A program made the translations under genes and the position numbers. A DNA stretch of 41,719 nt from a virus, in the IMG/VR virus record IMGVR_UViG_3300044712_001031, positions 1 to 41,719 of that record; one strand, given 5' to 3'. Position 1 is the stretch's first letter; each line of letters begins with the position of its first letter. Below the pieces are notes generated by a model, which saw only the letters and a list, made by a program, of their open reading frames with translations, was not told where the DNA came from and made no database searches. Shown one piece after another: positions 4,061-41,719 of this stretch.

Positions 4061-5513
4061 CGAAGTCAATCTGGTCATCACCGCGGTAGACCAGGCCAGC
4101 AAAACCCTAAAGGCCGTGGGCGATGCGTTCAACACGTTAACGGCCGGCGCTCGCTCTACGATCAATGAATTTTCCGCTTACGGCGCAAAAATCAAGGACA
4201 TCTCCAGTTATACCGGTCTGACTAGCGAGGAAACCAGCCGCATGGCGCAGGTCTTTGACGACGCCGGGGTCGGCATGGATACCCTGCAACAGGCCGCCAA
4301 AGCGCTCACACAGGAAAACGCCGCTAATGTCAAAGAAGCCAAAAAGCTGACCGACCAGATTGGGGACCTGCAGAAGAAACTGGCCGAAAAGCCCTCCGAT
4401 GAGCTGCGGGCGCAGTTGGTCGACCTACAAACCCAGCTCAAGGGCGTGCAGCCGGCGGCCAATCTATCGATCGATACCCTGGCGCGTCTGTCCGACGAAT
4501 ACCTAAAGATCAAGGATCCGGTCCAACAGGCCATTTTTCTTCAGGACAATTTCAAGCGCTCCGGGCAAGACCTGGCGAAGGTCATGCTGTTGGGTGGGGA
4601 TGCCATCCGCGAAAATGCCAAGAACGTATCAGACTCCCTGATCATCGATGACGAAAAGGCCAAGCGGATCGAAGCGACCCGCGTCAAGCTGGATGAGTTC
4701 AACGATGCCATGCAGGGATTACGGTATGATGTCGCGGACAAGCTCCTGGACATCTTTGGCGATATGCCCAAGCCGCTCCAGGATGCAACCTTAGCGCTGG
4801 GGCAGTTGCTCAGCCCAACCAATATCAACAGCTTGATCCAATTTGGCATCCTGCTCAAGGGCGTCAATTTCTTGCAATTTACGAGCGGGGTTATGTACGC
4901 GGTCCAGTGGTTGGGCGCATTTGGCTCACTGCTGGTCACAGGAGCCCTAACGGGGGGCATCGCTGGAATAGGTGCTGCCTTTAGCGCAGCCGCCCCTGGT
5001 TTGACCGCATTTGCGACAGCAGCCTGGGCCGTAGTTGCTCCGATTGCGGCTGTCACTTTAGCCGTTGCGGCACTGGTCGAACTCTTTCGGATGGACGAAA
5101 CGAAGCAGGCGCTCGCGCTGCTGTGGGGCAAGATCGGCGAAACCGTCACGGGTGATAAAACGCGCGGTGCGATGGCGACCCAATCGGCCTACGCTTTTTT
5201 AGGCGGCGGACAAAAAAGCGTCATCAATGACACTGAAACCGGTCCGATGCTTCGAAACTTTCTGCTGCCTCGCGCCAAAGGCGGTGCTGCGGTTCCCGGA
5301 CAGGGCTATTGGGTGGGCGAGGAAGGCCCGGAACCATTTTTCCCATCCGTACCCGGCACAATTATCCCTGCTGGCGGCATGGGCGGCAATACCTATCATT
5401 TCAGTTTCACGTTTCCCACGATGATGCAAACCGGCAGCCAGTCGGATGTGGAGCGCATCTTCAAGCCCCTGATCGTGGACTCCATTCGCGAAGTGCAAGG
5501 ACGGCGGTTCTAA
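4050..5513 (+). CDS. Tail tape measure protein
   Basis: The protein has 487 residues and starts at TTG 4050, with AGAGG seven bases upstream. The N-terminus is V-N-L-V-I-T-A-V-D-Q-A-S, a standard tape-measure opening. A charged coiled coil spans about 80-125, and hydrophobic membrane-like segments lie at about 255-345. The C-terminus has G-Y-W-V-G-E-E-G-P-E-P-F-F-P and G-T-I-I-P-A-G-G, a motif common at tape-measure ends. It sets tail length and may insert into the host membrane on DNA entry. At about 0.15 nm per helical residue it implies a short tail near 70 nm. It overlaps the gpGT frame by 11 bases. Confidence 0.9.
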   Translation: MADNEVNLVITAVDQASKTLKAVGDAFNTLTAGARSTINEFSAYGAKIKDISSYTGLTSEETSRMAQVFDDAGVGMDTLQQAAKALTQENAANVKEAKKLTDQIGDLQKKLAEKPSDELRAQLVDLQTQLKGVQPAANLSIDTLARLSDEYLKIKDPVQQAIFLQDNFKRSGQDLAKVMLLGGDAIRENAKNVSDSLIIDDEKAKRIEATRVKLDEFNDAMQGLRYDVADKLLDIFGDMPKPLQDATLALGQLLSPTNINSLIQFGILLKGVNFLQFTSGVMYAVQWLGAFGSLLVTGALTGGIAGIGAAFSAAAPGLTAFATAAWAVVAPIAAVTLAVAALVELFRMDETKQALALLWGKIGETVTGDKTRGAMATQSAYAFLGGGQKSVINDTETGPMLRNFLLPRAKGGAAVPGQGYWVGEEGPEPFFPSVPGTIIPAGGMGGNTYHFSFTFPTMMQTGSQSDVERIFKPLIVDSIREVQGRRF

Positions 5514-8824: not shown

Positions 8825-10045
8825 ATGACCCATATCGTTGACAGCAAGGTTAGGGCGAAAGTCGACACCGAAGATCCGGCGGCCCGCCTGCTTACGGCGG
8901 GTGCTGGCATTCAAACTGCCGACGGTGGGGCAGGAAACGGGGCGGTCGTAGCATTGTATGTAGCCCACCATTACACCTATGCCACTCAGACCGCGAGAGA
9001 AGCCGCCACTGGATTCGTGGTCGGCGACGTGGGCAAAGTGGCCTTTCAGGAGAGCGATGGTACCTACTGGACGTTGACCGATGACGATCCAATCACCTGG
9101 GTGGCCAAAACAGTTACCGTTGGAAGCGGCGGAGGCGCAGGGGCCTTTACTGATCTGACAGACGCTCCGGCGTCTTATTCAGGGCAGTCGCTCAAACTGG
9201 TTCGTGTGAACACAGGGGAAACGGCGCTGGAATTTGTGTCGCCGAGCGCCGGAAGTGGCTTTCTGTATCCGGCTTGCGGTCGGCTCACTTTAGAGAGCGG
9301 TGTCCCGGTTTCTACGGCGGACCAGACTGCTAAGACAACCCTCTATTACACACCTTACATCGGAAACCAGATCGCCCTCTTCAACGGTGCCACCTGGGAT
9401 CTCGTGACCTTTGCTGAGCTCAGCATTGCCGTTCCAGCAACCACATCCACGATGTATGACGTGTTTTGCTATAACAATTCCGGAACGGCGACACTGGAAT
9501 TGACCGCCTGGACCAATGATACAACCCGCGCCACGGCACTGGTCCGGCAGGATGGGGTGCTTTGCAAAACAGGAGCATTGACCCGGCGCTGGTTGGGCTG
9601 CATGCGTACCACCGGCGTCTCTGGGCAGACAGAGCTGAGTGCGGTCAATTTGTTCGTCTGGAACTTTTACAACCAGGTGGATGACCTGGTCTTTCTCGGT
9701 GCTGGTCCGGAGCATACCTGCGGCGTGGGCGGCCGGCTTTGGAACAACACCGCTACGGGAAACCAGGTATCCCTGATCTACGGCGGATACGGCAGCGCCA
9801 CCTGCCTATTGACGTATGGCGCTACGTTCACACGGGGCGGGTCCTACACCAACCTCAGCCTGTTGATCAACGGCGCTGGCCAATATACCACGTACGTTCG
9901 GATTGGGATTGGGGGCGGAAATCTGGGTCTTTATACGACCCAACCCAATGTGCTTCGAGCGGGGTTCAACTACTTCAACATCTACGAGGCTTCGGACGGG
10001 GGAACGCTGACCGAATTTAGAATGATGGGGACCTGGAGGAATTAG
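8825..10045 (+). CDS. Second fibre / receptor-binding-like protein
   Basis: The protein has 406 residues, starting at the base after the previous stop, so translation is probably coupled. The central part carries G-R-L-T-L-E-S-G-V-P-V and Y-Y-T-P-Y-I-G-N-Q-I-A-L-F-N-G, then R-R-W-L-G-C-M-R-T, a module seen across unrelated phage virion proteins. It contains Gly-rich turns near residues 100-106 and 355-365 and is beta-rich throughout. It is likely a tail appendage or fibre tip; the exact partner is unknown. Confidence 0.65.
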   Translation: MTHIVDSKVRAKVDTEDPAARLLTAGAGIQTADGGAGNGAVVALYVAHHYTYATQTAREAATGFVVGDVGKVAFQESDGTYWTLTDDDPITWVAKTVTVGSGGGAGAFTDLTDAPASYSGQSLKLVRVNTGETALEFVSPSAGSGFLYPACGRLTLESGVPVSTADQTAKTTLYYTPYIGNQIALFNGATWDLVTFAELSIAVPATTSTMYDVFCYNNSGTATLELTAWTNDTTRATALVRQDGVLCKTGALTRRWLGCMRTTGVSGQTELSAVNLFVWNFYNQVDDLVFLGAGPEHTCGVGGRLWNNTATGNQVSLIYGGYGSATCLLTYGATFTRGGSYTNLSLLINGAGQYTTYVRIGIGGGNLGLYTTQPNVLRAGFNYFNIYEASDGGTLTEFRMMGTWRN

Positions 10046-13827: not shown

Positions 13828-14308
13828 TGTTCCCTTCCCCTCTCCCGCCTTCCAGCCGCGGCAGTTCAATGCCCGGCAGCAACCCGGTCATCTCTTCCAC
13901 GTCCAGCTCACTGGCCACGGGCGGCATACCGCCACTACGAGCCCCTGGCAGTTCCATGTACCCGAACAGGGCGGCCGGTTGAGTATCGGCAGCCGTTAGG
14001 AGCGCCTTCACAAAGTACAGCGCTATCCGGCCCATCTGCCAGCGGGCTTGTTCCTCGTTCGGCCGCTTCTTTTTCTCGTAGCTCATGACTTTCGTGGGCC
14101 AGCGGCAAGGCGCCGGCGTGAAAACAAAGCGGTAAGCCCGCCCATTCCACTGGAAACGAATCACCCAGGCGTAATTGCCGTGAACCTGCCCCTGGCTAAC
14201 AATGGTTGCTGTCGCTCCAAAATTTTCCAACAGCTCCTGGATCTCTCCCAGGGATTTCGCCGGGTGAACAGTGGTATCGAAGTAGTTCAAGTCTTCGGCG
14301 TATTTCAT
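13820..14308 (-). CDS. Conserved-looking phage protein of unknown function
   Basis: The protein has 162 residues. It has an alpha/beta core with W-V-I-R-F-Q-W-N-G-R-A-Y-R-F-V-F-T-P near residue 50 and a helical region R-W-Q-M-G-R-I-A-L-Y-F-V-K-A-L-L near 95. The last 50 residues look disordered. It resembles small proteins of unknown role in early regions of siphoviruses. It overlaps both neighbours by 4-8 bases. Confidence 0.65.
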   Translation of the reverse strand: MKYAEDLNYFDTTVHPAKSLGEIQELLENFGATATIVSQGQVHGNYAWVIRFQWNGRAYRFVFTPAPCRWPTKVMSYEKKKRPNEEQARWQMGRIALYFVKALLTAADTQPAALFGYMELPGARSGGMPPVASELDVEEMTGLLPGIELPRLEGGRGEGNNG

Positions 14309-14904
14309 TGGGCCACCTCAGGCAGAAGTGTTTTCTCACGCCAGAAGTCGACTACATAACCCGCTTGTTCCATTGTGACAACCTGGCCACGTTTCCACTC
14401 GTATTCCCAGCCGTATTCTTTCCAATACTGGGTTTCCATCCGAAGATATGAATGGCTCTCTGGAACCCGGTAGGCGACTTCCACCGAATGCGAAGCCAGT
14501 CCTAAATCAAACTCCGGCAGCCTCTTGCCAACAGATATCCAGCGATCTCGTTCCCTCAGTGCGCTTTCAGCCGCGATCATGCGCTTTTGGGCGAGTTCCA
14601 GTTCTTCGCGCCGGCGCTGGCATTCTTGCTGTGCTTCAGCCAGTTCCGCTTCCAGTTCCACAACACGGGCTGAGAACTTATTGGTTTCCTCGCTCGCCTC
14701 TTGCACCATTTGGCGGTAAGGAGCATAAGTGCTGTCGGCCTGTTCAAGCAATTCTTTTATACGGGTGCTGACCGCTTCGAGTTCGGCACGCAGGGCCTCT
14801 CTCGCGATCTCCAATTCCTCCCGCGCTCCCAGCGCCGGTTGATCGCTGCCCAATTCCTGAGCTGCTGAAATCAGGTCGCTGATTAGGTCGTCAATATTAT
14901 TCAC
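14305..14904 (-). CDS. Coiled-coil protein with DUF551-like C-terminal domain
   Basis: The protein has 199 residues. About residues 25-120 form a long Glu/Arg/Ala-rich coiled coil. The C-terminal part begins R-W-I-S-V-G-K-R-L-P-E, the signature of the DUF551 domain common in phage accessory proteins, followed by V-E-V-A-Y-R. The fusion of coiled coil and DUF551 suggests oligomerisation or tethering. Function unknown. ATGA overlap with the downstream gene. Confidence 0.65.
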   Translation of the reverse strand: MNNIDDLISDLISAAQELGSDQPALGAREELEIAREALRAELEAVSTRIKELLEQADSTYAPYRQMVQEASEETNKFSARVVELEAELAEAQQECQRRREELELAQKRMIAAESALRERDRWISVGKRLPEFDLGLASHSVEVAYRVPESHSYLRMETQYWKEYGWEYEWKRGQVVTMEQAGYVVDFWREKTLLPEVAQ

Positions 14905-15233
14905 TTCCCCTCCGCTTTCACCTTCTCGACATACTCAATCGCCGCCTGCAGTTCCTCGACGATTTTGCGGGCATGCGCGACCGTTAGCCAGTCGGTGATG
15001 TAGTTATCTTCATCCTCGTACCATTCGCCGTCCCGATCCTGGCGGATGTTGATGAATTCGATGTTGGCATCCTTCTTATCAACGATCTCTGTGACTTTGG
15101 CCGTAAAAGTTTCGTGGTTGACTGTGAGTGTTTTGGTTATTTCATGCGTGCGCCATGAGATGCCAACCCAATCGCCGATCATGCGAACGGCTTTGTTCTG
15201 ACCGCTCAAATACACAATTCCATCGTTGCTCAT
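14901..15233 (-). CDS. Small phage protein, unknown function
   Basis: The protein has 110 residues, with beta-rich N-terminal two-thirds (a W-x-x-H-x-I-T-K-T hairpin and an acidic D-R-D-G-E-W-Y-E-D-E-D-N-Y patch) and a C-terminal amphipathic helix. It is coupled by ATGA to its neighbours, which supports it as a real gene. No family recognised. Confidence 0.6.
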   Translation of the reverse strand: MSNDGIVYLSGQNKAVRMIGDWVGISWRTHEITKTLTVNHETFTAKVTEIVDKKDANIEFINIRQDRDGEWYEDEDNYITDWLTVAHARKIVEELQAAIEYVEKVKAEGK

Positions 15234-15436
15234 TTCCCCTCTCTTTCCTGCTGCAGCAGTTGGCTCGTTTGCTTTTCCGCGTCCGCCTCAGCCAGATACT
15301 GCCGAGTTGGGTACCAGCCCGCGCAGGAGGATTGCGCCGGCGTCTCGACTGGCTGCTTATCCAGCAGGCAGATCGGACGCTCGCCGCATGCCTGGCCGTA
15401 CAGGTAGAAGCAGTAGCTACATTTCTTGGGTGGCAT
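15230..15436 (-). CDS. Cysteine-rich small phage protein
   Basis: The protein has 68 residues. The start at 15436 is chosen because it forms an ATGA overlap with the upstream stop; the longer in-frame extension would overlap the upstream gene fully. Cysteines in K-C-S-Y-C-F-Y-L-Y-G-Q-A-C and at two later sites could form a small zinc-binding or iron-sulfur site. Function unknown. Confidence 0.6.
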   Translation of the reverse strand: MPPKKCSYCFYLYGQACGERPICLLDKQPVETPAQSSCAGWYPTRQYLAEADAEKQTSQLLQQEREGK

Positions 15437-15687
15437 CAGTTCCCCCTCAACCTCATCTTGATGGCCTTGAGTTCCGCTTCGAGATCGGTAACCCGCTTCC
15501 ACAGCGCCACGTCGATAATGGTCGCAATGAACGGCTGGCCACCGTTGATGGTGACTTGCCACTCGCCGTCAGGTGCCTGAAACATGTGAATGACCGGCTC
15601 GGTGCTGGCTTTGGGTTTCTGCTGCTTTGGATAGGTACGCGAGAGATGGTTCGCGCGGGAAGAAGCGGGTAAGGTCATAGCGCTCAT
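15436..15687 (-). CDS. Small phage protein, unknown function
   Basis: The protein has 83 residues, with a basic N-terminal 30 residues, a central strand pair around G-E-W-Q-V-T-I-N-G-G, and a C-terminal helix of coiled-coil character (V-T-D-L-E-A-E-L-K-A-I-K). Coupled to the next gene by ATGA. No family recognised. Confidence 0.55.
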   Translation of the reverse strand: MSAMTLPASSRANHLSRTYPKQQKPKASTEPVIHMFQAPDGEWQVTINGGQPFIATIIDVALWKRVTDLEAELKAIKMRLRGN

Positions 15688-15694
15688 AAGACTC

Positions 15695-28300: not shown

Positions 28301-28395
28301 TTCTTCCCCCACTTGATGCCCTGAATGTCTTTATTGGTCTGATAGATTGCCCAGATGACCAGCGCTCCAACGATGATTACGCCCACAAGGTTCAT
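28297..28395 (-). CDS. Tiny single-helix membrane protein (32 residues)
   Basis: This short frame has GGAGGATGAA upstream of ATG 28395 and ends exactly in an ATGA overlap with the next gene. It encodes one hydrophobic helix (about 3-18) followed by a basic tail with K-W-G-K-K. The good ribosome site and the coupling support it as a real gene. A toxin-like or membrane-regulatory peptide is possible; nothing proves it. Confidence 0.5.
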   Translation of the reverse strand: MNLVGVIIVGALVIWAIYQTNKDIQGIKWGKK

Positions 28396-28444
28396 TTCAT
28401 CCTCCGTTTATGCTTCGTCGGCTTGCTTTCGGGTTACTCTATTG

Positions 28445-28651
28445 CTAGGCTTTGATCTCGCGATCTTCAGCCCGGCGATGAGGGATGGCAGGGGTGTTCG
28501 CTTTTTCAGTGGCATCGGCCCAATCGCGGATGATGATACGGAGGGCTGCGGAAAAACCGCGTGCGCCTAAACCAAGTTTCTCCGCTTGGGCTTCTACAAT
28601 CTTTCGTTCTGTTTCGGTTAGGACTACGCCTGTGGTATAGGTTTCTTCCAT
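28445..28651 (-). CDS. Ribbon-helix-helix-like small regulator
   Basis: The protein has 68 residues. G-V-V-L-T-E-T-E-R-K-I-V-E-A-Q-A-E-K-L-G-L-G, then F-S-A-A-L-R-I-I-I-R-D-W, follow the strand-helix-helix layout of Arc/CopG-type DNA-binding proteins. As the first gene of the leftward operon and divergent from the repressor, it could be the Cro-equivalent or an early-gene autoregulator. AAGGAA lies before the start. Confidence 0.65.
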   Translation of the reverse strand: MEETYTTGVVLTETERKIVEAQAEKLGLGARGFSAALRIIIRDWADATEKANTPAIPHRRAEDREIKA

Positions 28652-30484: not shown

Positions 30485-31396
30485 ATGGCAACGCAACGGA
30501 CTATGCTTTTGTCTTTAATCGATAATTTTTTGCTGTATCAGAAAAGTCTCAAAAACTCCCCGCGCACGCGCCAATTTTATAGCCAGAAGCTCATCCAGTT
30601 CGTGCACTACCTGGAGGAAATGGGCTATGACGCCACCCTCGAAAATACGACTACGGATCAAATCCGGCGATACCTGGTCTGGCTGGAAGAGACCGGTCAC
30701 AATCCGGGCGGCTGCCATGCAGCCTTTCGAGCGCTCAAGGCCATGCTCTATTGGTACGAAGGCGAGTATGAGCTGGAAGGCTGGAAAAATCCCATCCGCC
30801 ATAAGATCAAGGCGCCTAAGGTGCCCGAGGTTATTCTGGATCCGATTGAAAAATCGGTGCAAGAAAAGCTGCTGGCCACCTGCAAATCGGGCAGCTACAT
30901 TGACGATCGGGACCGGGCGATTATGCTCCTGCTGCTGTCCACCGGCGTGCGAGCCAATGAGCTGGTCCAGATGAACATTGAGGATGTGACCTGGCCCTTG
31001 CGGAAAATCACGGTCAAGCACGGCAAGGGCAATAAACAGCGTTCGGTATTCTTCGACAAGCCGGCGGCGCGTGCTCTGCGGGGATATCTGAAGCATCGGG
31101 GCAGTCCCGAGACCGGGCCGCTGTTTGACAATATCTTAGGGGAGCGCCTGCTGTATGGCGGCCTGCGCATGGTATTGGAGAGCCGGATCAAAAAAGCGGG
31201 GCTGTCAAAAAAGGGGCTGATGCTGCATGCCTTCCGGCGTACCTTTGGAATCAACCGGATCCGGGCCGGCGCGGGAGAGATGGCCACGGCCAGGCTGCTG
31301 GGGCATACTACCACGGCGATCGTTCACAAATACGCGAAGCAGGATGACAATGACCTGAAAAAGGCGCATGATCTGGAACTGGAAGAGGAGGAGTAG
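30485..31396 (+). CDS. int: Tyrosine-recombinase integrase
   Basis: The protein has 303 residues, with GGAGGG before ATG 30485. Catalytic residues are placed as expected: R156 in T-G-V-R-A-N-E-L, a Lys in H-G-K-G-N-K near 181, H248-x-x-R251 in H-A-F-R-R, H274 in L-L-G-H-T, and nucleophile Y283 in H-K-Y-A-K. The N-terminal helical core-binding domain resembles XerC/D-like integrases. It recombines attP (just upstream) with a host tRNA-Leu gene. Its neighbours, lipoprotein and repressor, form the lysogeny block. Confidence 0.93.
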   Translation: MATQRTMLLSLIDNFLLYQKSLKNSPRTRQFYSQKLIQFVHYLEEMGYDATLENTTTDQIRRYLVWLEETGHNPGGCHAAFRALKAMLYWYEGEYELEGWKNPIRHKIKAPKVPEVILDPIEKSVQEKLLATCKSGSYIDDRDRAIMLLLLSTGVRANELVQMNIEDVTWPLRKITVKHGKGNKQRSVFFDKPAARALRGYLKHRGSPETGPLFDNILGERLLYGGLRMVLESRIKKAGLSKKGLMLHAFRRTFGINRIRAGAGEMATARLLGHTTTAIVHKYAKQDDNDLKKAHDLELEEEE

Positions 31397-31440: not shown

Positions 31441-31469
31441 TTGTACCCGATCTCTAATGTGCGTATAAT
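31441..31469 (+). promoter_or_regulatory. Late promoter, module A
   Basis: TTGTAC (31441-31446) and perfect TATAAT (31464-31469) are 17 bases apart. The downstream 15 bases share TATAATG-x-ACATA-x4-AATAGC with module B. Transcription would start near 31476 and run into the terminator at 31514. Confidence 0.75.
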
Positions 31470-31475
31470 GAACAT

Positions 31476-31564
31476 AGTTCAATAGCGCTGCCGGGTAGCC
31501 GGCACAGAGAGATAAGCGCCTCGGTACCTGATCTGATGGATCATGTCACCGAGGCGCTTTTTAT
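31476..31564 (+). ncRNA. Structured leader or small RNA, module A
   Basis: The leader begins with the conserved AATAGC, then a small hairpin TGCCGG-GTAG-CCGGCA (31489-31504), then CACAG at the same distance from the promoter as in module B, then a 12-bp terminator. Either it is a free ~90-nt RNA or, more likely, the controlled leader of the late operon, read through when an antiterminator acts. Confidence 0.5.
31514..31564 (+). terminator. Strong intrinsic terminator, module A
   Basis: A perfect 12-bp stem (31514-31525 with 31548-31559) with a loop that has an inner GATC/GATC pairing is followed by TTTTTAT. It ends transcription from the promoter at 31464 before the first late gene, whose AGGAGG site begins a few bases on. 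Confidence 0.85.
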
Positions 31565-31582
31565 ATTTTCCAGGAGGTTGGG

Positions 31583-31864
31583 ATGGATGGATTGACCGAG
31601 GGTCGTATGGTTCATTTTGTCATGCCGGACGGGACCCATGCCCCGGCTATCGTGGTCAAGGTCTGGAACGCAAGTGGGCTGACCAATCTGCAGGTTATCA
31701 CCGACGGCAGCAATGCTCTACCCTATACGCCCGAAGAAAAAGAAAAATTCCGCGGGCAAGGGATGGATCTCGAAACCGTCAAGCATGGTCATGTTTGGGT
31801 GACGTCACGCTCTTATTCTGAAACACCGGAACCCGGCACCTGGCACTGGATCGAAAAGGCATAG
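31583..31864 (+). CDS. Small conserved-looking phage protein
   Basis: The protein has 93 residues, with AGGAGG at 31572. The opening G-R-M-V-H-F-V-M-P-D-G-T-H and the end P-E-P-G-T-W-H-W-I-E are common in short proteins near phage lysis or packaging genes. Probably a beta-rich fold. It is the first gene after module A. Function unknown. Confidence 0.6.
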   Translation: MDGLTEGRMVHFVMPDGTHAPAIVVKVWNASGLTNLQVITDGSNALPYTPEEKEKFRGQGMDLETVKHGHVWVTSRSYSETPEPGTWHWIEKA

Positions 31865-31868
31865 GGGT

Positions 31869-32369
31869 ATGATGAAGAGTTTTTTACGCTGGATGACCCT
31901 TTTTATCGTTGCGGTGATGATCGTCACCCTGGTTTTATTGGGCACTTCGGGCCTGGCCAAAGCTGCGACCGCAGGTGCAGATTTTCCCTACCAGACGGGG
32001 ATGATCCTTCCATTGGAGGAAGCGGTCGCCCTGGACCCGCTGGCCATCCTGGCGATTATCCTGATCGTGGCCTTTATGGTAGAAACCATTGTCGAGTTCA
32101 CCTTTGCCCCCTTCTTCGACAAAATTCCGACCTTGACACCGTTCAAATGGATTCAAATGTATATCGCTTTGGCCGTCGGCGTGGTTGCCGCGGTTGTCTA
32201 TAAATTCGATGTGATCTTCCTGCTGGGCTTGTACTTTAAGCAACCCATCCCGGTGACGATGGTCGGGGTGATCTTGACCGGTCTGGCGGTCGGGAAAGGA
32301 TCGAACTATTTGCACGACCTGATCTCCAAATGGCTGGCGCCGAAGCCGGTACCGGGGCTGGTCGCATGA
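31869..32369 (+). CDS. Membrane protein, holin-like candidate
   Basis: The protein has 166 residues. An N-terminal signal-like segment ends near A-K-A-A. Three later hydrophobic segments follow, the last with G-V-I-L-T-G-L-A-V-G-K-G-S-N-Y-L-H-D-L-I, a pattern seen in phage small membrane proteins annotated as holins. Its location at the head of the late operon fits a lysis role, but the lysin candidate is far away at 11647. The next gene starts inside its stop (ATGA). Confidence 0.55.
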   Translation: MMKSFLRWMTLFIVAVMIVTLVLLGTSGLAKAATAGADFPYQTGMILPLEEAVALDPLAILAIILIVAFMVETIVEFTFAPFFDKIPTLTPFKWIQMYIALAVGVVAAVVYKFDVIFLLGLYFKQPIPVTMVGVILTGLAVGKGSNYLHDLISKWLAPKPVPGLVA

Positions 32370-32803
32370 TCCACTTGCAAGCCGCTCCCCCTCCAGATTT
32401 CTGGACCTGGTTATTCACCAACAAAGCCTGGAATGAATTCCCGGTCGTCTTCCTGATCGTGGCCTGTTTTTTGCTGGTCGGCGTGGCCGTGCGCTGGTTT
32501 TGGACCGACTATAAAAAAGAGGCGGAGAAAGACCGCAACTGGCGCGAAGAGCAAAACGAAAAGCATGAAAAGGCGCAGAACGAGCGCGACCGGCTCATGC
32601 GCGAGTTTTTCTACTCCGTCTCAGAGGGCAACAAAAACGACATTGCCGACATGCGGGGGGTCTCCGACCGGATCACCAAAGCGCTGGATGCTCTGCTGCT
32701 CAATTATGCCAACCACGATCTGCAAGCCAAAGAGATCAAGATGCTGGTGTCTGAGATCCGGAACGAACTGACGAAGCTCGCGCATAAAGGATTGTCTGCA
32801 TAA
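32366..32803 (+). CDS. Membrane-anchored coiled-coil protein, possible lysis accessory
   Basis: The protein has 145 residues from ATG 32366. A single hydrophobic segment (about 24-45) is followed by a long charged coiled coil with K-E-A-E-K-D-R-N-W-R-E-E-Q-N-E-K. It is coupled to the holin candidate, so it might be a spanin-like or holin-partner protein. No family recognised. Confidence 0.55.
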   Translation: MIHLQAAPPPDFWTWLFTNKAWNEFPVVFLIVACFLLVGVAVRWFWTDYKKEAEKDRNWREEQNEKHEKAQNERDRLMREFFYSVSEGNKNDIADMRGVSDRITKALDALLLNYANHDLQAKEIKMLVSEIRNELTKLAHKGLSA

Positions 32804-32823
32804 TATAGGCCTGCATAAATCCG

Positions 32824-33432
32824 ATGAACCCTGAGCAAACCCCAAAGCGCAAAACTGAAATTGCATCTCGCCGGCAGCAAGTGGCAGAGATGTATTTGCG
32901 TGGACAATCCCAGGCAGAAATTGGCGAAACCCTGGGGTGTGATCAGGCGACCGTTTCACGCGACCTGACCGAACTTCGCAAGGAGTGGCTGGATCGGTCC
33001 ATCAATCACGTCGACCAGAAGAAAGCGATCGAGCTGGCCAAACTCGACCGGCTCGAAGTCACCTACTGGGAAGCCTGGGAGCGCAGCCTGAAAGACGCCG
33101 AAACCACCATCTCGGAAAGCGGCGGCAAATTTGGATCCAAGACCATCCTCCGGCGCGAGGGTCAATCCGGCAATCCCGCATTCCTCGAAGGCGTTTTGAA
33201 GTGCATCAATAAGCGCTGCGAGCTGCTGGGATTGGACGCGCCCAAGAAAACCGACCTGACCAGCGGCGGGAAACCTATTCAAGCGGGAAGCGATGAACGA
33301 TATGATCGAGCGGTATCTTCGCTCGCTGACGCTCTCCGAGATCTCGTACCTGGAACGGGTGCAGAAGCGCCAGGCCCTGTGGATGCCACAAAGCAAGCCC
33401 CAGTGGGCGGCGTTTCTCAGCCGGGCGGATGA
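32824..33432 (+). CDS. Terminase small subunit-like DNA-binding protein
   Basis: The protein has 202 residues. Residues of about 20-55 form a helix-turn-helix (Y-L-R-G-Q-S-Q-A-E-I-G-E-T-L-G-C-D-Q-A-T-V-S), followed by helices with W-E-A-W-E-R-S. It lies directly before the large subunit, where the small terminase that recognises packaging sites is expected. Its last 140 bases overlap the large-subunit gene in another frame. The C-terminal part is Gly/Pro-rich and disordered. Confidence 0.7.
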   Translation: MNPEQTPKRKTEIASRRQQVAEMYLRGQSQAEIGETLGCDQATVSRDLTELRKEWLDRSINHVDQKKAIELAKLDRLEVTYWEAWERSLKDAETTISESGGKFGSKTILRREGQSGNPAFLEGVLKCINKRCELLGLDAPKKTDLTSGGKPIQAGSDERYDRAVSSLADALRDLVPGTGAEAPGPVDATKQAPVGGVSQPGG

Positions 33433-34768
33433 GGTCTTCTATGGTGGCGCAGCCGGCGGCGGGAAAACGGATCTGCTTATCGGGATGGCCAGTGAGGCAC
33501 ACCAGCACTCGGCCATCTTTCGCCGGGTCTACCCCAACCTGCAAGGCATCCTGCGCCGCGCCCGCGAGATCATCAAAAGCACCGCTCAGGAAAACAAGTC
33601 GGACAAAACCTGGACCTGGCCGGACGGTCGGACCATCGAATTCGGCGCCGTCCAGTACGAGGAAGACAAGTCCAACTGGCAAGGACGGGCGCACGATCTC
33701 AAGGGCTTTGATGAGCTGCCCGAATTCACCGAGAGCCAGTATGAATTCATCTGCGGCTGGAACCGCTCGGTTGACCCGAACCAGCGCGTGCGGGTCCTGG
33801 CAACCGGCAACCCGCCGATCGATGAGGCCGGCTCCTGGATCGTGCGCCGCTGGGGGCCCTGGCTCGATCCCAATCATCCCCACCCGGCCAAAGAGGGCGA
33901 GCTGCGTTGGTATGCCACGATCGACGGCAAAGAGCAGGAGTGCGCCTCGGGCGATCCCATCCAGCTCGGCAGCGAGACGATTTTTCCCCGCTCGCGCACC
34001 TTTATCCGGGCCACGGTCAAGGATAACCCGTATTATGCCAACGACCGGCGCTATCTCTCGGTGCTCCAATCCCTGCCCGAGCCGCTGCGCTCGATGTTCC
34101 TGTACGGCGACTTCCAGGCTTCCAGCGCCCCGGATCCCTTCCAGGTCATCCCGACCGAATGGGTCCGCCTGGCACAGAAGCGCTGGCTGGAGCGAACCCG
34201 CCCAACCACACCCATCTCGGCAGTTGGGATCGATGCGGCCCGGGGAGGGAACGACAGCATGACGTTGGCCCGCCGGTACGATAACTGGTTTGATGAGGTG
34301 CTCAAGTGGCCCGGCGCAAAGGCGCCTGATGGCGGCACCGCGGCGACCCTGGTGCATGCGGTACTGGGGCCAGAGACTGCGGCCTATATCAACGTGGACG
34401 TGATCGGGGTCGGGTCTTCCACTTACGATCACCTGAAGCCGCTCTACAAACGGACCTATCCGGTCAACGCCTCGGAGGGCTCCGTCTACCGCGACAAATC
34501 CAAAGCGCTCAAGATGCGCAACATTCGGGCGGAGATGCACTGGCGCATGCGTGACGCCCTGGATCCGGTCGGCGGCGATGAGCTGGCGCTGCCCAATGAT
34601 CCCGAGATCCTGGCGGACCTGTGCGCGGCGCGCTACAAGCTGACATCCGCCGGGGTGCTGATCGAGGAAAAGTCTGAAATCAAAGAACGCATTGGGCGCT
34701 CTCCCGACGTGGGCGAGGCGCTGATGCTGGCGAATATGCCGGGTCGAGGAGGGTTGAGTGTCTTTTAA
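33293..34768 (+). CDS. Terminase large subunit
   Basis: The protein has 491 residues. Walker A G-G-A-A-G-G-G-K-T is at 51-59, Walker B G-F-D-E at about 138-141 with D140/E141, a coupling motif A-T-G-N-P at 170-174, and nuclease domain acids in G-I-D-A-A-R-G-G-N-D (D314, D321) and I-N-V-D near 369. It packages DNA through the portal and cuts concatemers. The start at 33293 sits within the small-subunit gene; a later start would lose residues N-terminal to Walker A. Confidence 0.93.
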   Translation: MNDMIERYLRSLTLSEISYLERVQKRQALWMPQSKPQWAAFLSRADEVFYGGAAGGGKTDLLIGMASEAHQHSAIFRRVYPNLQGILRRAREIIKSTAQENKSDKTWTWPDGRTIEFGAVQYEEDKSNWQGRAHDLKGFDELPEFTESQYEFICGWNRSVDPNQRVRVLATGNPPIDEAGSWIVRRWGPWLDPNHPHPAKEGELRWYATIDGKEQECASGDPIQLGSETIFPRSRTFIRATVKDNPYYANDRRYLSVLQSLPEPLRSMFLYGDFQASSAPDPFQVIPTEWVRLAQKRWLERTRPTTPISAVGIDAARGGNDSMTLARRYDNWFDEVLKWPGAKAPDGGTAATLVHAVLGPETAAYINVDVIGVGSSTYDHLKPLYKRTYPVNASEGSVYRDKSKALKMRNIRAEMHWRMRDALDPVGGDELALPNDPEILADLCAARYKLTSAGVLIEEKSEIKERIGRSPDVGEALMLANMPGRGGLSVF

Positions 34769-34976
34769 ACTACGCGTGGACGACCGCATTAAGTCGCGGG
34801 CGGACGACTATATCGCGCTGATTGGGCTGATCTGTTTTCTGATCGGCCTGTACCTGTGGTTGGGCTTGCCGGCGGCATTGATGGTGCTGGGGATTGTGAT
34901 GGTGTACGCCGGGGTCAAGCTGGACCCGGCCGAATTATGGAGGACGGATGAACCTGATCAAACAACTGCTTCCTAG
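34758..34976 (+). CDS. Small two-helix membrane protein
   Basis: The protein has 72 residues with a GTG start at 34758 after GAGGAGGG, overlapping the terminase stop by 11 bases and the portal start by 29. Two hydrophobic helices (about 17-35 and 37-53) are joined by a short turn. Its location between terminase and portal is unusual for a membrane protein. No family recognised; a role in superinfection exclusion or lysis is possible. Confidence 0.55.
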   Translation: MSFKLRVDDRIKSRADDYIALIGLICFLIGLYLWLGLPAALMVLGIVMVYAGVKLDPAELWRTDEPDQTTAS

Positions 34977-36501
34977 TGCCCGCAAGTTTACGCCGGCTTC
35001 GGCCGAGGTCAACTGGGGCCGGATTGAAACCCTGGTGCATGGCCCCGGCGCCAGCGCGAGCAGCGGCGACGATCTCAACAGCGCGGTGTTCGCCTGCCTG
35101 ATGGCCCTGGCAATGGCCGAACCCGAGCCGCCCCTGCAGGTCAAGCGCCAAACCAGCGCGGGCAAATCCGAGAAGCTGCCCGAATCCCCCCTGCAGAAGC
35201 TCCTCGATCAGCCGACCCCCAACAGCGAGCTGACGATGGAGGAGATGCGCTTCTGGAAGGCCTGGGCCAAACACGTCGACGGCAACGCCTACTGGCTCAA
35301 GGTGCGCTCGGGCGATGCCCTGACCGGCAACGTGGTGCAGCTCTGGCCGATCTCGCCGACCCTGATCAAGCCGATCACGCGCAAGGGCTCGGACGACTGG
35401 ATCAGCTATTACCAGTACCAGTACGAATCCGGCAAGTTCAAAGAGGTGCCGGTCAACAACATCATCCATTTCCGGCTGGGTCTGGACGACCGCGATATGC
35501 GCAAGGGCCTGGCGCCCTTGAAGGCGTTGGTGCGGCAAATTTCGACCGATGATGAAGCCGATCATTTCGTGGATGCACTGCTCAAAAACTACGCTGTACC
35601 TGGGCTGGTCGTGGTGCCCGATGAAACTACCGATTTGGACCAGGAGGCCGCCGACGATATGACCGACCGCCTGCGCCGGAAATTTGGCAGCAGCAACCGC
35701 GGCAACGTGGCGGTTATGTCCAAGAAGGTCGACGTTAAGGCCTTTGGCTTTTCCCCCAAAGACCTGGATATGAGCATCCTGCACCGCATCCCCGAGGAGC
35801 GCATCTCCGCGGTGATTGGCGTTCCGGCGATCGTCGCCGGCTTGGGCGCCGGGCTCGACCGGGCCACCTATGCCAATTTCAAGGAAGCCCGCGAGATGTT
35901 CACGGAATCCAAGATGATCCCGCAGTGGCGCGCCGACGGCCGCAAGTTGACCAATTCGCTGCGCCCGGATTTCACCACCGATCGCCGGGTGTTCATCGAT
36001 CACGACCTGACCGACGTGCGCGCCCTGCAGGAAGATGAGGACGCGAAATATCGCCGGCTGCAAGGCGCGGTGGGCAAACCCTGGATCACCCGCAACGAGG
36101 CCCGCACCGATACCGGCCTGGAGCCGGTCGATGGCTGGGATGAAGAGGATATCGCAAAGCCCGAACCGCCGCCTGTCCAGCCGCCGCCTGCAGCGCAGCC
36201 GACCGAGACGCAGCCTCCAGACAAAACCGAGAACCCGGTACGCAAGGACTTGGAACGCTGGTTCCGCAAAGCCTATAAAGCCTTACACAAAACCGGGTCA
36301 GCCGCCTGCAACTTTGAAAGTGATTACATCCCTGAGAAAATGGCGAGTGAAATATCGGCCGGTCTGTCGGATTGCAAGACGATGTACGATATCGAGCAGT
36401 TGATGTATGCCAGAGACTACAACGTAAGTGTTGAAGATATCCCCGTGGTCGAAGCCGCCAACCGCCTGGCCGCCGCGATCGAAGGGCTCCAGCATGCCTG
36501 A
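34948..36501 (+). CDS. Portal protein, HK97 type
   Basis: The protein has 517 residues, with GGAGG before ATG 34948. The N-terminal half matches HK97-family portals: A-V-F-A-C-L-M-A-L-A, then G-N-A-Y-W-L-K-V, then I-I-H-F-R-L-G-L-D-D-R, then I-P-E-E-R-I-S-A-V-I-G-V-P-A. A Pro-rich stretch (about 405-435) leads to a C-terminal ~80-residue segment that is more variable. It forms the dodecameric DNA channel and docks the terminase. Confidence 0.92.
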   Translation: MNLIKQLLPSARKFTPASAEVNWGRIETLVHGPGASASSGDDLNSAVFACLMALAMAEPEPPLQVKRQTSAGKSEKLPESPLQKLLDQPTPNSELTMEEMRFWKAWAKHVDGNAYWLKVRSGDALTGNVVQLWPISPTLIKPITRKGSDDWISYYQYQYESGKFKEVPVNNIIHFRLGLDDRDMRKGLAPLKALVRQISTDDEADHFVDALLKNYAVPGLVVVPDETTDLDQEAADDMTDRLRRKFGSSNRGNVAVMSKKVDVKAFGFSPKDLDMSILHRIPEERISAVIGVPAIVAGLGAGLDRATYANFKEAREMFTESKMIPQWRADGRKLTNSLRPDFTTDRRVFIDHDLTDVRALQEDEDAKYRRLQGAVGKPWITRNEARTDTGLEPVDGWDEEDIAKPEPPPVQPPPAAQPTETQPPDKTENPVRKDLERWFRKAYKALHKTGSAACNFESDYIPEKMASEISAGLSDCKTMYDIEQLMYARDYNVSVEDIPVVEAANRLAAAIEGLQHA

Positions 36502-37174
36502 TTCCTTGACCCAGCTGCGCGGCCTGCTGAGCGAGGCCATCCCGGCGCTGGAAGCCTACCTGGAGCGCAAGACCTATGCCCAGTACCGCGCCCGTTTATG
36601 GGGGGCGATGGTCCGCATGTTCGAGAGCGGCAATGATGGGGCCTTTATGGCCACCTTTTCGCGCTCCATCGACCAGCAGCTGACCGAGGCCTGGAACAAG
36701 GGCGCGAAAGACGTGCACGTCGATCCGGATGAGATGACCAACGAAGACTTGAACGTCCTGCGCTCGGTCATTCTCAACGAGATCAATTTCGCCCGGGGCA
36801 TCGCCGACGAGATCCAGGTCGACCGGGTCAACAAGCTGCCCCGTGCCCAGTTCGAGGCGAAATACGGCCCGCGCTGCGATGTCTGGGCCAACCGCTATAA
36901 CGACCTGCGCAACCAATCCCGGCTGCTGTTTGGCTCGAAACTCAAGTTCGAATGGATCGTCGGACCCACTGAGGACTCCTGTGGAACCTGCCAGGCCCTG
37001 AATGGTATGGTCGCCTATGGGTACGAGTGGGAGCGATCGGGATTACGGCCTCAGAACCCGCCCAACAAACGGCTGGAGTGTGAGGGCTGGCACTGCCAAT
37101 GCGAGCAGCGGCCCACCAGCAAACCGCGCACGCCGCGCGCCGCCGAGAAGCTGGCGTATATCGCCAAGAGGTAA
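36494..37174 (+). CDS. Mu gpF-like minor head protein
   Basis: The protein has 226 residues, 8 bases overlap with the portal gene. The C-terminal region with S-C-G-T-C-Q-A-L-N-G and C-E-G-W-H-C-Q-C is characteristic of the Mu gpF / SPP1 gp7 head morphogenesis family, which helps build the procapsid and may be ejected with DNA. The metal-like Cys cluster is intact. N-terminal helices are as expected. Confidence 0.8.
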   Translation: MPDSLTQLRGLLSEAIPALEAYLERKTYAQYRARLWGAMVRMFESGNDGAFMATFSRSIDQQLTEAWNKGAKDVHVDPDEMTNEDLNVLRSVILNEINFARGIADEIQVDRVNKLPRAQFEAKYGPRCDVWANRYNDLRNQSRLLFGSKLKFEWIVGPTEDSCGTCQALNGMVAYGYEWERSGLRPQNPPNKRLECEGWHCQCEQRPTSKPRTPRAAEKLAYIAKR

Positions 37175-37175
37175 G

Positions 37176-37718
37176 ATGACCTGTATTGTCGGGATTGAAA
37201 CGGAGCAAGGCGCCTGGATGGCCGGCGACAGCGCGGCCGCGACAGGCTGGGACATTCGCCAAACCGCGTTGAGCAAGGTGTTCACGGTGGGCCAGTACAC
37301 CATTGGCTATACCTCCTCGTTCCGGATGGGCCAGATCCTTCAGCACCAAGTGGACTATCCCCTCTGCGACGATCCAAGCGAGAAGTTCATGGTGACCGCT
37401 TTCGTGGAAATGGTCCGCAAGGCCCTTAAAGACTTTGGCTATGCTCAGGTCAACAATAATCAGGAATCCGGCGGTGACTTCCTGGTCATGGTTTGGGGGC
37501 GCCTCTTCCATATCTCCAGCGACTTCCAGGTCAACCGCTACCAGAATGGATTGTATGCCGTCGGCTGCGGCGCGCCTTATGCCCTGGGCGCCATGTTCTG
37601 CGGTCATCCCGCGATCCCACCGCGCACGCTCATGCGGATGGGCCTGAGCGCCGCGGCGACCTTCAGCAACGGCGTCACGCCCCCCTTTACCGAAGCCGAT
37701 TTCAGCGAGAGGCGATAA
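37176..37718 (+). CDS. Proteasome-like Ntn-hydrolase family protein
   Basis: The protein has 180 residues from ATG 37176 after AGAGGTAAG. The opening M-T-C-I-V-G-I-E places Thr2 (or Cys3) at a mature N-terminus, and A-G-D-S-A-A, then K-V-F, then I-G-Y-T-S-S-F-R-M-G follow the HslV/proteasome beta-subunit layout. G-C-G-A-P-Y-A-L-G-A-M is like the later strand-helix. Phage members of this fold are of unknown substrate. Because a separate HK97-type prohead protease is encoded downstream, this may be a second maturation or accessory protease. Confidence 0.65.
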   Translation: MTCIVGIETEQGAWMAGDSAAATGWDIRQTALSKVFTVGQYTIGYTSSFRMGQILQHQVDYPLCDDPSEKFMVTAFVEMVRKALKDFGYAQVNNNQESGGDFLVMVWGRLFHISSDFQVNRYQNGLYAVGCGAPYALGAMFCGHPAIPPRTLMRMGLSAAATFSNGVTPPFTEADFSERR

Positions 37719-37719
37719 A

Positions 37720-38226
37720 GTGGACCTGCAAATCGATCCGACTGCCATCACCGACCTGGAACGCATCCAGAAGAAGCTGGCCCAACTGCCCAAAGCCGTG
37801 GGCGATGCTGGCGTGGAGCAGGGCTCGAACTACCTGATCGGCGTGCTGGTCAATAAGGAAATGCCGCCGTATCAATATATTGCACGCAAAGCGGCCTATG
37901 GCCAAACCTTCCAGAGCAAGAAGCAGCAGCGCTGGTTCTGGTGGGCAGTTAAGACCGGCAAGATCCTGTTTCCCATTCACTACCTGCGCCGCTCGCCGGC
38001 CGGCGGGCTGGCAGCCGCCTGGAAAATCCTGGGATCGGGTCAGGCTCGCACCCTGACCAATACCGCGCCTTCTGCGGTCTGGGTCTACTCTCAGCGCCAG
38101 GCCCGGCAGCTTGCGCTGGTCGGCTGGAAGAAGATCACGGTCATCCTCCGGCAGTACGAAAAGAATATCTATGATTCATTCATGCGCGGGGCTCGCAAGG
38201 CCATCCGCGATTTAGGCTTGGGATAA
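37720..38226 (+). CDS. Structural-operon protein, unknown function
   Basis: The protein has 168 residues, GTG start after GAGAGGCGAT. It is basic, with many Gln/Arg/Lys, W-F-W-W near residue 70, and an arrangement similar to minor head-tail or HK97 gp10-like proteins. The position between head genes and a methyltransferase suggests virion assembly. No firm family. Confidence 0.5.
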   Translation: MDLQIDPTAITDLERIQKKLAQLPKAVGDAGVEQGSNYLIGVLVNKEMPPYQYIARKAAYGQTFQSKKQQRWFWWAVKTGKILFPIHYLRRSPAGGLAAAWKILGSGQARTLTNTAPSAVWVYSQRQARQLALVGWKKITVILRQYEKNIYDSFMRGARKAIRDLGLG

Positions 38227-38236
38227 GGAGAACCTC

Positions 38237-38983
38237 ATGAAATTCGATCGTCACGCATTTTGGAAAAACCCAGGCGCGCCGGCCAACGTCGACGCGTACA
38301 GTGAAGCAGTGATCGCGCGCTGCCGGCCAGAGTTTTACCTGGACCTGGTCAACGTGACCCGGCTGGTGGTGGAAACGGTAAAGAAATACGCGATCCCAGC
38401 CATGTCAATCACTGAGCTGGGCTGTGGCACTGGCCGTAACCTGGTCGGATTGTATAAGGCCGGGTTTGAGGAAGTTTTTGGCGTGGAACTCAGTCAGGAT
38501 GCATTCGACCTGGGAATGAAAACCTTTCCAGAACTCGCAAAGATTATGTGCCTGATCGCCCCGGTCGAAAACGTGATCAAGAACTTGCCTGAGTTCGACG
38601 TCATCTTTACCCAGGGGCTGCTGATGCTCCTGCCCCCAGATCTGGAATGGGTGATTTCCGAGATGGCCGCGAAAGCGCGGTTTATGATCTTTACCATCGA
38701 GGGCGAGCGCCCGCCGTCCTTCCACGCCTGGCCGCATGATTATCAGCAGATCATCGAAGCGGATGGAAAGTGGGAGCAGGTCGAGGTGCATACCTGCGAA
38801 GATTGGGAACCGTTGCCCAAGACAACGGTGCTGCGGGTGTTCTTGCGGGTTGATCGAAACTTCCAACTTCCGATCGGTGAGGCGGATACAGTGCAGGCGG
38901 AGGCTGAAGCGGTTCCAGTTGAGCCGGATCCGGCGCCCATCGCCAAGCCGGTAAAACCCAAACGGATCAAGAAGACCCCTTGA
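38237..38983 (+). CDS. Class I SAM-dependent methyltransferase
   Basis: The protein has 248 residues. Motif I E-L-G-C-G-T-G-R-N-L near residue 60, an acidic V-E-L-S at the following strand, and F-D-V-I-F-T-Q-G near 120 define a class I Rossmann methyltransferase. The last 30 residues are Pro/Lys-rich and disordered. It lies in the head operon just before module B and the glycosyltransferase. The substrate could be a glycan, a virion protein or a small molecule; no DNA methyltransferase catalytic motif is seen. Confidence 0.75.
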   Translation: MKFDRHAFWKNPGAPANVDAYSEAVIARCRPEFYLDLVNVTRLVVETVKKYAIPAMSITELGCGTGRNLVGLYKAGFEEVFGVELSQDAFDLGMKTFPELAKIMCLIAPVENVIKNLPEFDVIFTQGLLMLLPPDLEWVISEMAAKARFMIFTIEGERPPSFHAWPHDYQQIIEADGKWEQVEVHTCEDWEPLPKTTVLRVFLRVDRNFQLPIGEADTVQAEAEAVPVEPDPAPIAKPVKPKRIKKTP

Positions 38984-38990
38984 TCATTTG

Positions 38991-38999
38991 TGCTATAAT
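38991..38999 (+). promoter_or_regulatory. Late promoter, module B (extended -10)
   Basis: TGC-TATAAT with perfect -10 at 38994-38999 begins 8 bases after the methyltransferase stop. No -35 consensus is visible at 17 bases, so the TG extension must carry recognition. The downstream sequence matches module A (TATAATG-x-ACATA-x4-AATAGC). Confidence 0.65.
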
Positions 39000-39005
39000 G
39001 TACAT

Positions 39006-39142
39006 AATCAAATAGCCCAATTCCAGGCTACCCCACAGGCGCGGTGAGCGCGGGGGAAAAGGGAAGCGGGCGAGACGCAAAAAGGCATTGTAAAGGCGGC
39101 GTGTAATCTCTGAGAAATCAGGGATGACACGCCGCCTTTTTT
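39006..39142 (+). ncRNA. Structured leader or small RNA, module B
   Basis: After the conserved AATAGC the leader folds into TAGCC/GGCTA (39013-39030), then a second hairpin with CCCC (39031-39034), GCGC, a GGTGA loop, GCGC and GGGG (to 39055), then an A/G-rich single-stranded stretch, then the terminator. It is longer and more structured than module A. It could be a leader for antitermination or a distinct ~135-nt RNA made in late infection. Confidence 0.5.
39092..39142 (+). terminator. Strong intrinsic terminator, module B
   Basis: A perfect 13-bp stem (39092-39104 with 39127-39139) whose loop has an inner CTGA/TCAG pairing is followed by a run of T. It stands between promoter B and the glycosyltransferase, protease and capsid genes, and also in the path of transcripts from module A. 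Confidence 0.85.
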
Positions 39143-39160
39143 GTTTTCCGATGGAGGCTT

Positions 39161-40291
39161 ATGAATGCTCGGGTGTTGGCACTGGTGGGCGAGATGGACG
39201 GCTGCGCGCTGTGGCGCGTGCTGCTGCCTTTTACCGAGCTGCAGCGCCAGGGCTACCGCGGCATCGAATGGGGCATGCGCGAGGACAACCGGCTCGCGCA
39301 GATCGTGCACCAGTTTGACGCCGTGATCCTGCCTCGCCTGCACTGGCCGATCGAAGAGCGTGCCAAAGCCGATCAGTGGTTCAAGGCCCTCCATAAGGCT
39401 GGCCTCGCGGTGATCTACGAGGTAGATGACGACCTGTTCAGCGAGGATTTCGTGCGACGGCTGGTCGTCCAGCACGGCAAGAGCCCGATGGAAGCCAAAG
39501 AGCGCCAGGGCTGCATCCTGCACGCGCTGCGCTCCTGCGACGGCGTGACGGTGTCCGGGCAGCGCCTGGCCACGATGGTCCGTGAATTCACCGACCAGCC
39601 GGTCAAGGTCGTCCCCAATTTCATCGACCTGACCTGGTTCCGCCGGGTCCAGAAAATGGCGCAGCGCCAGGTGCAAGGCCTCACGATCGGCTGGGCCGGC
39701 GGTAATCGTCCGGATTCGGACGTTGAAATGATGGCACACGCCTGGGCCCGGGTTGCCAAACGCTACCCCCATGTCACCTTCGTCATTCAGGGCCATCACG
39801 CCAAAGTCATTTATGACCTGGTGCCCAACGAGCGGATTGCCATGCTGAATTGGATGCCGATCGACCAGTATCCGGCGGGTCTCGTGAACATCGATATCGG
39901 CTGCTGTCCGCTGGGAGACACGAAATTCAACCGGGCCAAAACCTACATCAAGGCAATGGAATACGCGGCCAGTGGCGCCGCGGTCGTTGCGAGCCCCACG
40001 GTCTATCACCAGTTGATCGACCCGGCCGTGAACGGTTATCTCGCGACCAGCGTGGACGAGTGGGAAGGCTATCTCTCGCTGCTGGTCGAAAGCTACACCC
40101 TGCGCCGCGACCTGAGCAAGCGCCTGCTGGCAAAGGTCCGCCGCGAGCACGCCCTGACCCGTCAGGCCTGGCGCTGGGTCGAGGCTTGGGACGAAATTAC
40201 CGCCCATTACCGGGGGGAAACTTCCGGATCTATTCCTTTTCAAGAGGCAGCCTATGGCAACCAAAACCGTCAATTCCAACACGCTATATAG
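39161..40291 (+). CDS. Glycosyltransferase, GT-B type
   Basis: The protein has 376 residues after a GGAGG site. The C-terminal domain shows the GT4-like nucleotide-sugar region: V-V-P-N-F-I-D near 150, G-W-A-G-G near 180, then F-N-R-A-K-T-Y-I-K-A-M-E-Y-A-A-S-G-A near 262, then N-G-Y-L-A. It sits immediately before the prohead protease and capsid genes and overlaps the protease by 38 bases. Modification of capsid or other virion proteins, or of phage DNA, is possible; the target is unknown. Confidence 0.8.
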   Translation: MNARVLALVGEMDGCALWRVLLPFTELQRQGYRGIEWGMREDNRLAQIVHQFDAVILPRLHWPIEERAKADQWFKALHKAGLAVIYEVDDDLFSEDFVRRLVVQHGKSPMEAKERQGCILHALRSCDGVTVSGQRLATMVREFTDQPVKVVPNFIDLTWFRRVQKMAQRQVQGLTIGWAGGNRPDSDVEMMAHAWARVAKRYPHVTFVIQGHHAKVIYDLVPNERIAMLNWMPIDQYPAGLVNIDIGCCPLGDTKFNRAKTYIKAMEYAASGAAVVASPTVYHQLIDPAVNGYLATSVDEWEGYLSLLVESYTLRRDLSKRLLAKVRREHALTRQAWRWVEAWDEITAHYRGETSGSIPFQEAAYGNQNRQFQHAI

Positions 40292-41034: not shown

Positions 41035-41719
41035 ATGGCTATGACAGTTGCCGAAGCCCGCGCGGAGATCAAGTCGCTGTTTGAAAAGGCCGACCTGATT
41101 GAGAAGCGCTACCCCGATGGGGTAATCACCAATAACGAAGACCTGGCCGAAGTCAAGCGCTGCCTGACCGAAGTCGATGGTCTGGAAGCCAAACTCGCCG
41201 GGCTGGAAGACGCCGAATCCCGGCGCGCTCGCATCCTGGCCGGCATGGACCGCTATACCAAGCCGGCGCCCGGCGCGACCCTCCCGGGCCAGCAGGTCAA
41301 GGACATCCAGGAGGGCCAGACCCTCAGCCCCGGCGATCAGTTCCTCCTGGCCCGCGAATACCGCGAGCTGAAGCTGGCCGGCCACTTCAATTCATCCCTG
41401 GCCCGGGTGCAGTTTGCCGTCTCCCTGAAAGATGGCACCAGCCTGATCCAGTGGTCCAAGCGCATGCAGATGGAATCCAAAGCCCTGCTGCGCGGCGGGT
41501 CCGCCACGTCCGGCGGCGCGTTCGTGGTCAACGAGCACCTCTCCGGGCTGGTGGACGTGCGCCAGCGCGAGCTGAGCCTGCTCGACCTGATCCCGCGGGT
41601 AACGACCGAAAGCGATGTGGTCGAATACGTGAAGGAAGACACCTTCACCAATGCCGCGGCTGCCGTGGCGGAAGCTTCCGCCACCACCCGCCCCTCGGGC
41701 CTGAAGCCGGGAAGCCCCC
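41035..41719 (+). CDS. Major capsid protein, HK97 fold (N-terminal part; continues at 1-687)
   Basis: The 228 residues read here start at ATG 41035 after AAGGAG and run off the end. A helical, charged N-terminal ~95 residues (V-A-E-A-R-A-E-I-K-S-L-F) is the delta/scaffold domain, followed by E-G-Q-T-L-S-P-G-D. G-G-A-F-V-V-N-E and S-L-L-D-L-I-P-R-V begin the capsid fold. The last 52 bases repeat the start of the window with mismatches and probably carry errors. Confidence 0.93.
   Translation, partial: MAMTVAEARAEIKSLFEKADLIEKRYPDGVITNNEDLAEVKRCLTEVDGLEAKLAGLEDAESRRARILAGMDRYTKPAPGATLPGQQVKDIQEGQTLSPGDQFLLAREYRELKLAGHFNSSLARVQFAVSLKDGTSLIQWSKRMQMESKALLRGGSATSGGAFVVNEHLSGLVDVRQRELSLLDLIPRVTTESDVVEYVKEDTFTNAAAAVAEASATTRPSGLKPGSP
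41668..41719 (+). repeat. Terminal overlap with bases 1-52 (imperfect)
   Basis: This 52-base end aligns without gaps to the first ~52 bases with five substitutions, in the same frame of the capsid gene. The left copy gives the more capsid-like protein. The likely origin is circular genome assembly with low-quality ends rather than a true direct repeat. Confidence 0.85.

Follow-up and report, generated by a model that had tools for sequence, protein, structure and literature searches.

The question raised by this locus is how late phage genes are read when an intrinsic terminator lies between them and their predicted promoter. The arrangement occurs twice on the plus strand of the window, the 41,719-nucleotide stretch of an IMG/VR virus record (G000) that was analysed here, and the two occurrences are referred to as units A and B (Table 1). 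In each unit a sigma-70-type promoter is predicted to open a short leader that ends in an intrinsic terminator, just 5' of the genes served. The explanation favoured here, held tentatively and with slightly less than even confidence, is that both late promoters are gated by factor- or RNA-dependent antitermination.

Pfam and PHROG profile searches placed terminase, portal, head protease, capsid and tail genes on the plus strand of the window, and genes of recombination and a methylase on the minus strand. Sequence comparison revealed that a near relative (L007/L009) is continuous across the window ends, and that the ends themselves overlap imperfectly within the capsid gene (41668-41719 against 1-52, 47 of 52 bases identical, 5 mismatches). 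This overlap is an imperfect assembly closure, and together these data indicate a circular or circularly permuted genome. The top terminase match in the genome collection was an Anaerolineales MAG (65%), and hence the host probably belongs to the Anaerolineae (Chloroflexota). A related terminase was also found in an Anaerolineae-class genome (G068), on a contig of 40,759 bases (C3; L190-L192) which sits beside contigs of 3.99 and 1.00 Mb, carries no start-proximal terminator and is possibly an extrachromosomal prophage. As a separate observation, an 87-bp stretch of the window (28391-28477; minus strand CAATAGAGTAACCCGAAAGC) is 92% identical in L007 while its surroundings differ; it lies where a small ORF of the minus strand ends and takes in the spacer ahead of the next gene.

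Table 1. Positions of units A and B and of neighbouring features in the window.
Feature	Position	Strand	Basis and details
Integrase	30485-31396		
Unit A promoter, TTGTAC-17-TATAAT	31441-31469	+	Sequence; kept in L007/L009 despite unrelated upstream DNA
Block common with unit B, TATAATGAACATAGTTCAATAGC	31464-31486	+	None in shuffles; one change in L007, TATAATGATCATAGTTCAATAGC
Leader A hairpin, UGCCGG-GUAG-CCGGCA	31489-31504	+	Fold; changes in L009 mostly in the loop
Terminator A and U tract	31515-31563	+	Hairpin 31515-31558, -29.2 kcal/mol; stem kept in L009
First gene after unit A, 93 aa	31583-31864	+	Shine-Dalgarno AGGAGG, 31572-31577
Unit B promoter, TG-extended -10 (TGC-TATAAT), weak -35	38991-38999	+	Sequence
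Block common with unit A, TATAATGTACATAATCAAATAGC	38994-39016	+	Shuffle test; TATAAT-N11-AATAGC kept in L009 unit B
Folded RNA element of leader B	39015-39071	+	Covariance model R1, compensatory pairs; outer stem 39015-39024 with 39062-39071, inner stem 39031-39034 with 39052-39055, 4-nt bulge ACAG 39035-39038, hairpin 39039-39042 with 39048-39051
Terminator B and U tract	39093-39142	+	Hairpin 39093-39138, -34.6 kcal/mol; stem kept in L009
Glycosyltransferase, first gene after unit B	39161-40291	+	Pfam Glyco_trans_1_4, phrog_7162; Shine-Dalgarno GGAGG, 39153-39157

The gene blocks assigned to the two units in an earlier note on this DNA were borne out by the profile matches: unit A lies ahead of the block leading to TerL and portal, and unit B ahead of the glycosyltransferase, head protease and capsid genes. 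The 93-aa first gene after unit A matched no family in Pfam or PHROG, and a different gene follows the unit in L007. The claim of an intrinsic terminator ahead of each late block also held, as both hairpins end 22-24 nt 5' of a start codon equipped with a Shine-Dalgarno sequence. They are the only strong terminators of the window positioned before a gene; the early leftward promoter (28726-28699) has no terminator of this kind. The folds of the units were 5 to 6 standard deviations better than those of shuffles, mainly due to the terminators. Leader A is 39 nt long with a single hairpin, while leader B is a folded RNA of 87 nt. In unit B of L009 the -35 side has been replaced, giving TTGACT-16-TATAAT. 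No DNA match to either unit was found among annotated phages. A candidate leader peptide in B was rejected because its frame is broken by single-base indels in L009.

The two units had been described as a duplicated module with TATAATG-N-ACATA-N4-AATAGC in common. This motif was indeed present twice and absent from 100 shuffles, and the block TATAATGNACATANNNNAATAGC had its sole matches in the window, with up to 3 mismatches allowed, within the two units (mean of 0.00 in 100 shuffled sequences). The duplication, however, extends from the -10 to about +11 only, since leaders, stems and terminators are unrelated between A and B, and a covariance model of leader B does not detect unit A. The -35/-10 spacers of A and B have only TGTGC in common, adjoining the -10, and those of L009 A and B have nothing clear in common. 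The proposed common CACAG was not sustained: in the relative it is replaced by CGAAG in unit A and by CATAG in unit B, and in B the position corresponds to the 4-nt bulge, with variants ACAG, AUAG and AGAG. GNACATA is likewise not kept in the unit B of the relative (TATAATAATTTTAATCAAATAGC), where TATAAT-N11-AATAGC and the leader persist. The units also carry a -10-like CATAGT/CATAAT around -3 to +3. An exact motif search of viral contigs gave, besides a near-identical contig, one match (L003), which falls in an apparent coding stretch and was not accepted as a further unit; matches to TCAATAGCGCTGCCGGG in L265 and L267 are accompanied by neither promoter nor terminator and look like chance.

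Both units are conserved as islands in L007/L009: unit A over 148 bp at 88.5% identity and unit B over 198 bp at 92.9%, in each case with unrelated DNA on both sides. Such conservation is as might be expected from function, and conserved recombination boundaries could be an alternative cause. In L007, unit B is flanked on each side by a minus-strand HNH_3 endonuclease gene (14226-14693 and 15053-15691), the downstream one lying where the glycosyltransferase gene begins; that gene has acquired a new start codon beyond it. The HNH genes around B in L007/L009 are insertions.

If the antitermination reading is right, polymerase that had not become terminator-resistant would be halted some 85 nt (A) or 135 nt (B) from its start, and expression of the late genes from A and of the capsid block from B would require antitermination to be on. 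The gap from U tract to start codon, 5-35 nt in most units, leaves no room for a promoter, and transcripts must therefore pass the terminator. We infer that both promoters are active, that their hairpins stop transcription and that read-through is made possible by a factor or an RNA. The agent may be a phage factor, a host factor or the RNA itself. Folding revealed no competing antiterminator helix in leaders A and B: leader and terminator energies were additive in both, and the best fold without terminator was 24-30 kcal/mol weaker. Riboswitch-type helix exclusion is thus unlikely, because leader and terminator fold independently. The loading signal in B would probably be the conserved folded RNA of its leader, and the -10 to +11 block of the two units may be a second signal, at the DNA level or through pausing. 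A single RNA signal common to both units is not evident, given that their leaders are unrelated.

The folded RNA of leader B was analysed with a covariance model (R1) built from the leaders of L213 and L216 only, which precede a glycosyltransferase of the same gene family, 64% identical to that of the window. With filters off, R1 detected, as its top matches, window positions 39010-39078 (E 1.4e-4) and L009 16511-16579 (E 1e-4). In the four-sequence alignment 93.8% of cells were paired, as compared to 31-48% in slid controls, which had at most one compensatory pair; in the alignment itself three pairs were changed on both sides (G-C to A-U once, C-G to G-C twice). As the alignment was fitted to the structure and its four sequences represent two lineages, this is good but thin evidence that the leaders of B, L213 and L216 are homologous with covarying stems. 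Related leaders with covarying stems, whose absence would have refuted the reading of the earlier note, were thus found for B, in L213 and L216. A homologue of leader A was found only in the near relative, with no informative covariation. No additional leader B homologue was found among the fetched loci. The L227 leader aligns with B by sequence and was left out of the RNA family because model R2 does not detect it. Matches of R1 in L243 (E 0.03, inside a gene) and of R2 in L128, L250 and L210 (chance level) were discarded, and a search of 396 Anaerolineae-class genomes with R2, under strict filters and without positive control, returned none. Rfam gave no match at gathering cut-offs for the window, L213, L216, L227, L210, L015 or L012, and chance-level matches only at a loose threshold.

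A conserved folded RNA inside a promoter-to-terminator unit of small-RNA length would also fit two trans-acting small RNAs, about 85 and 135 nt long and ended by the terminators, with read-through as a side product. StxS, the terminated transcript of the Stx phage late promoter (PMC7873438), provides a precedent and resembles the predicted product of the units, a short terminated late-promoter transcript, which here is an sRNA candidate. This explanation is nevertheless quite improbable: read-through is needed regardless, since the stretch from terminator to late gene shows no promoter in either unit, leader A is kept in the nearest relative only, and duplex prediction with the start regions of phage genes yielded no target that convinced. 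One nominal match for A, at 5309, has an uncertain start and was not used.

Among relatives identified by terminase or capsid, about a dozen contigs have a strong terminator right in front of a start codon where the head genes begin or adjoin. The layout precedes a head gene or an adjoining late gene in the window, L009, L010, L012, L015, L017, L020, L022, L027, L108, L213, L227 and others, and the terminator is absent in many capsid relatives. Of the intergenic terminators, 17 of 33 were start-proximal in the close group against 28 of 142 in more distant relatives, counts that carry an ascertainment bias because terminators were picked by the presence of a U tract. Promoter-like sites were enriched upstream: the promoter was better than at least 95% of shuffles in 9 of 18 start-proximal terminator units, which are not all independent, some being from the same or closely related phages. 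Hairpins and leaders across the relatives are mostly unrelated in sequence, and a search for a common motif in 13 leaders of the wider clade gave nothing above shuffles. In 300 kb of one Anaerolineae-class genome, 3 of 12 terminators were start-proximal, too few for judging a host-wide 5'-UTR habit. In L025, the terminator hairpins at 5000-5030 and 8851-8883 begin 6 and 11 nt past the -10 hexamer, and the transcript would therefore start at or beside the hairpin itself.

This distribution bears on a further explanation, that the terminators are leaky attenuators or insulators, fixing the ratio of expression in the absence of any regulated antitermination. The free variation of the hairpins between relatives and their absence from some would agree with it, as would the failure to find either a factor (Q and NusG profiles, see below) or a common motif. 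Long stems and full U tracts, however, predict little leak, the same gene boundary carries the layout again and again, and the extra conserved folded RNA in B would be unneeded; simple leakiness consequently has a low probability in our estimation.

Rather unlikely, too, is that hairpin and U tract form a 5'-UTR element, in which the hairpin would protect the 5' end of abundant late mRNAs and the U-rich stretch would aid ribosome binding. The U-rich stretch beside the start codon of the E. coli rnd mRNA aids ribosome binding in this way. Almost everywhere the hairpin with its U tract sits directly against the start codon, and in L210 (8038) and L213 (5513) the U tract runs into the ATG of the glycosyltransferase, which lacks a clear Shine-Dalgarno sequence. 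In the L216 lineage, moreover, erosion has affected the U tract and the base of the stem, with the leader and much of the hairpin kept. Against such a role, a protective hairpin needs no U tract and termination would lose most transcripts; the conserved structured part of B is upstream of the hairpin; and unit B of L007 is kept despite an HNH gene between unit and gene, an insertion that may be recent.

Antitermination is favoured over these explanations on three grounds: the layout recurs ahead of late genes, B contains a conserved folded RNA, and lambda Q, AlpA and GafZ provide precedents. The absence of the terminator from many capsid relatives and its erosion in the L216 lineage speak against it. 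The likeness to lambda pR'-tR' suggested in the earlier note was upheld for the layout and did not extend to a Q protein; that to HK022 put did not extend to the structure of B, which is a single interrupted stem. As that note had stated, the window contains no recognisable Q protein: profiles PF03589 and PF06530 gave no match in the window and 7 relatives at E up to 0.1, a search that a very divergent Q would escape. The NusG domain (PF02357; LoaP/NusG-paralogue type) was likewise without match in the 8 records, and antiterminators of unknown families would escape these searches. As in the lambda Q system, the units place a promoter and then an intrinsic terminator ahead of late genes, whereas their common block is at -10 to +11 and not in the spacer, and two units occur within one late gene block, each with the terminator directly before a gene start. 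AlpA of Pseudomonas aeruginosa acts on two operons in which promoter and terminator are immediately upstream of the first ORF, as in A and B, and its binding element lies between -35 and -10 (PMC7969949). In the Caulobacter GTA cluster, capsid-type genes need antitermination by GafZ, as proposed here; its binding element is also in the spacer, and termination there occurs at a set of 150-bp repeats that follow the first gene (PMC11150451), while in the units the terminator precedes the first gene. In contrast to AlpA, A and B have no clear spacer element in common beyond the TGTGC, and their common block lies at and after the -10, not in the spacer where AlpA and GafZ bind. HK022 put consists of two adjacent stem-loops of about 70 nt, similar in both copies (PMC9378689); leader B resembles it as a folded RNA of about 60-70 nt just past the promoter and differs in being one interrupted stem, found in B only, with A unrelated. 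It is plausible that the units work in the manner of late-gene antitermination, whereas membership in the lambda Q, AlpA or put systems is not demonstrated.

A put-like action of the leader B RNA itself is possible. The put RNA brings about read-through without a phage protein, via the zinc-binding domain of the RNA polymerase beta' subunit. The stronger proposal, that leader B represents a new class of cis-acting antitermination RNA with a put-like role and an unrelated structure, which would pass polymerase through the terminator before the capsid block in Anaerolineae-type phages, is an unlikely one at present.

The recurrence of the layout in related phages and the conserved folded RNA of B suggest a switch that would time the reading of the capsid genes. 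Most of what is understood about processive antitermination in phages comes from cultured systems, the lambdoid ones above all. The covarying leader B RNA, which falls outside the Rfam families, is small and directly testable. If the antitermination reading is true, terminator-gated late leaders would extend this form of control to phages of the Chloroflexota, a phylum with hardly any phage biology.
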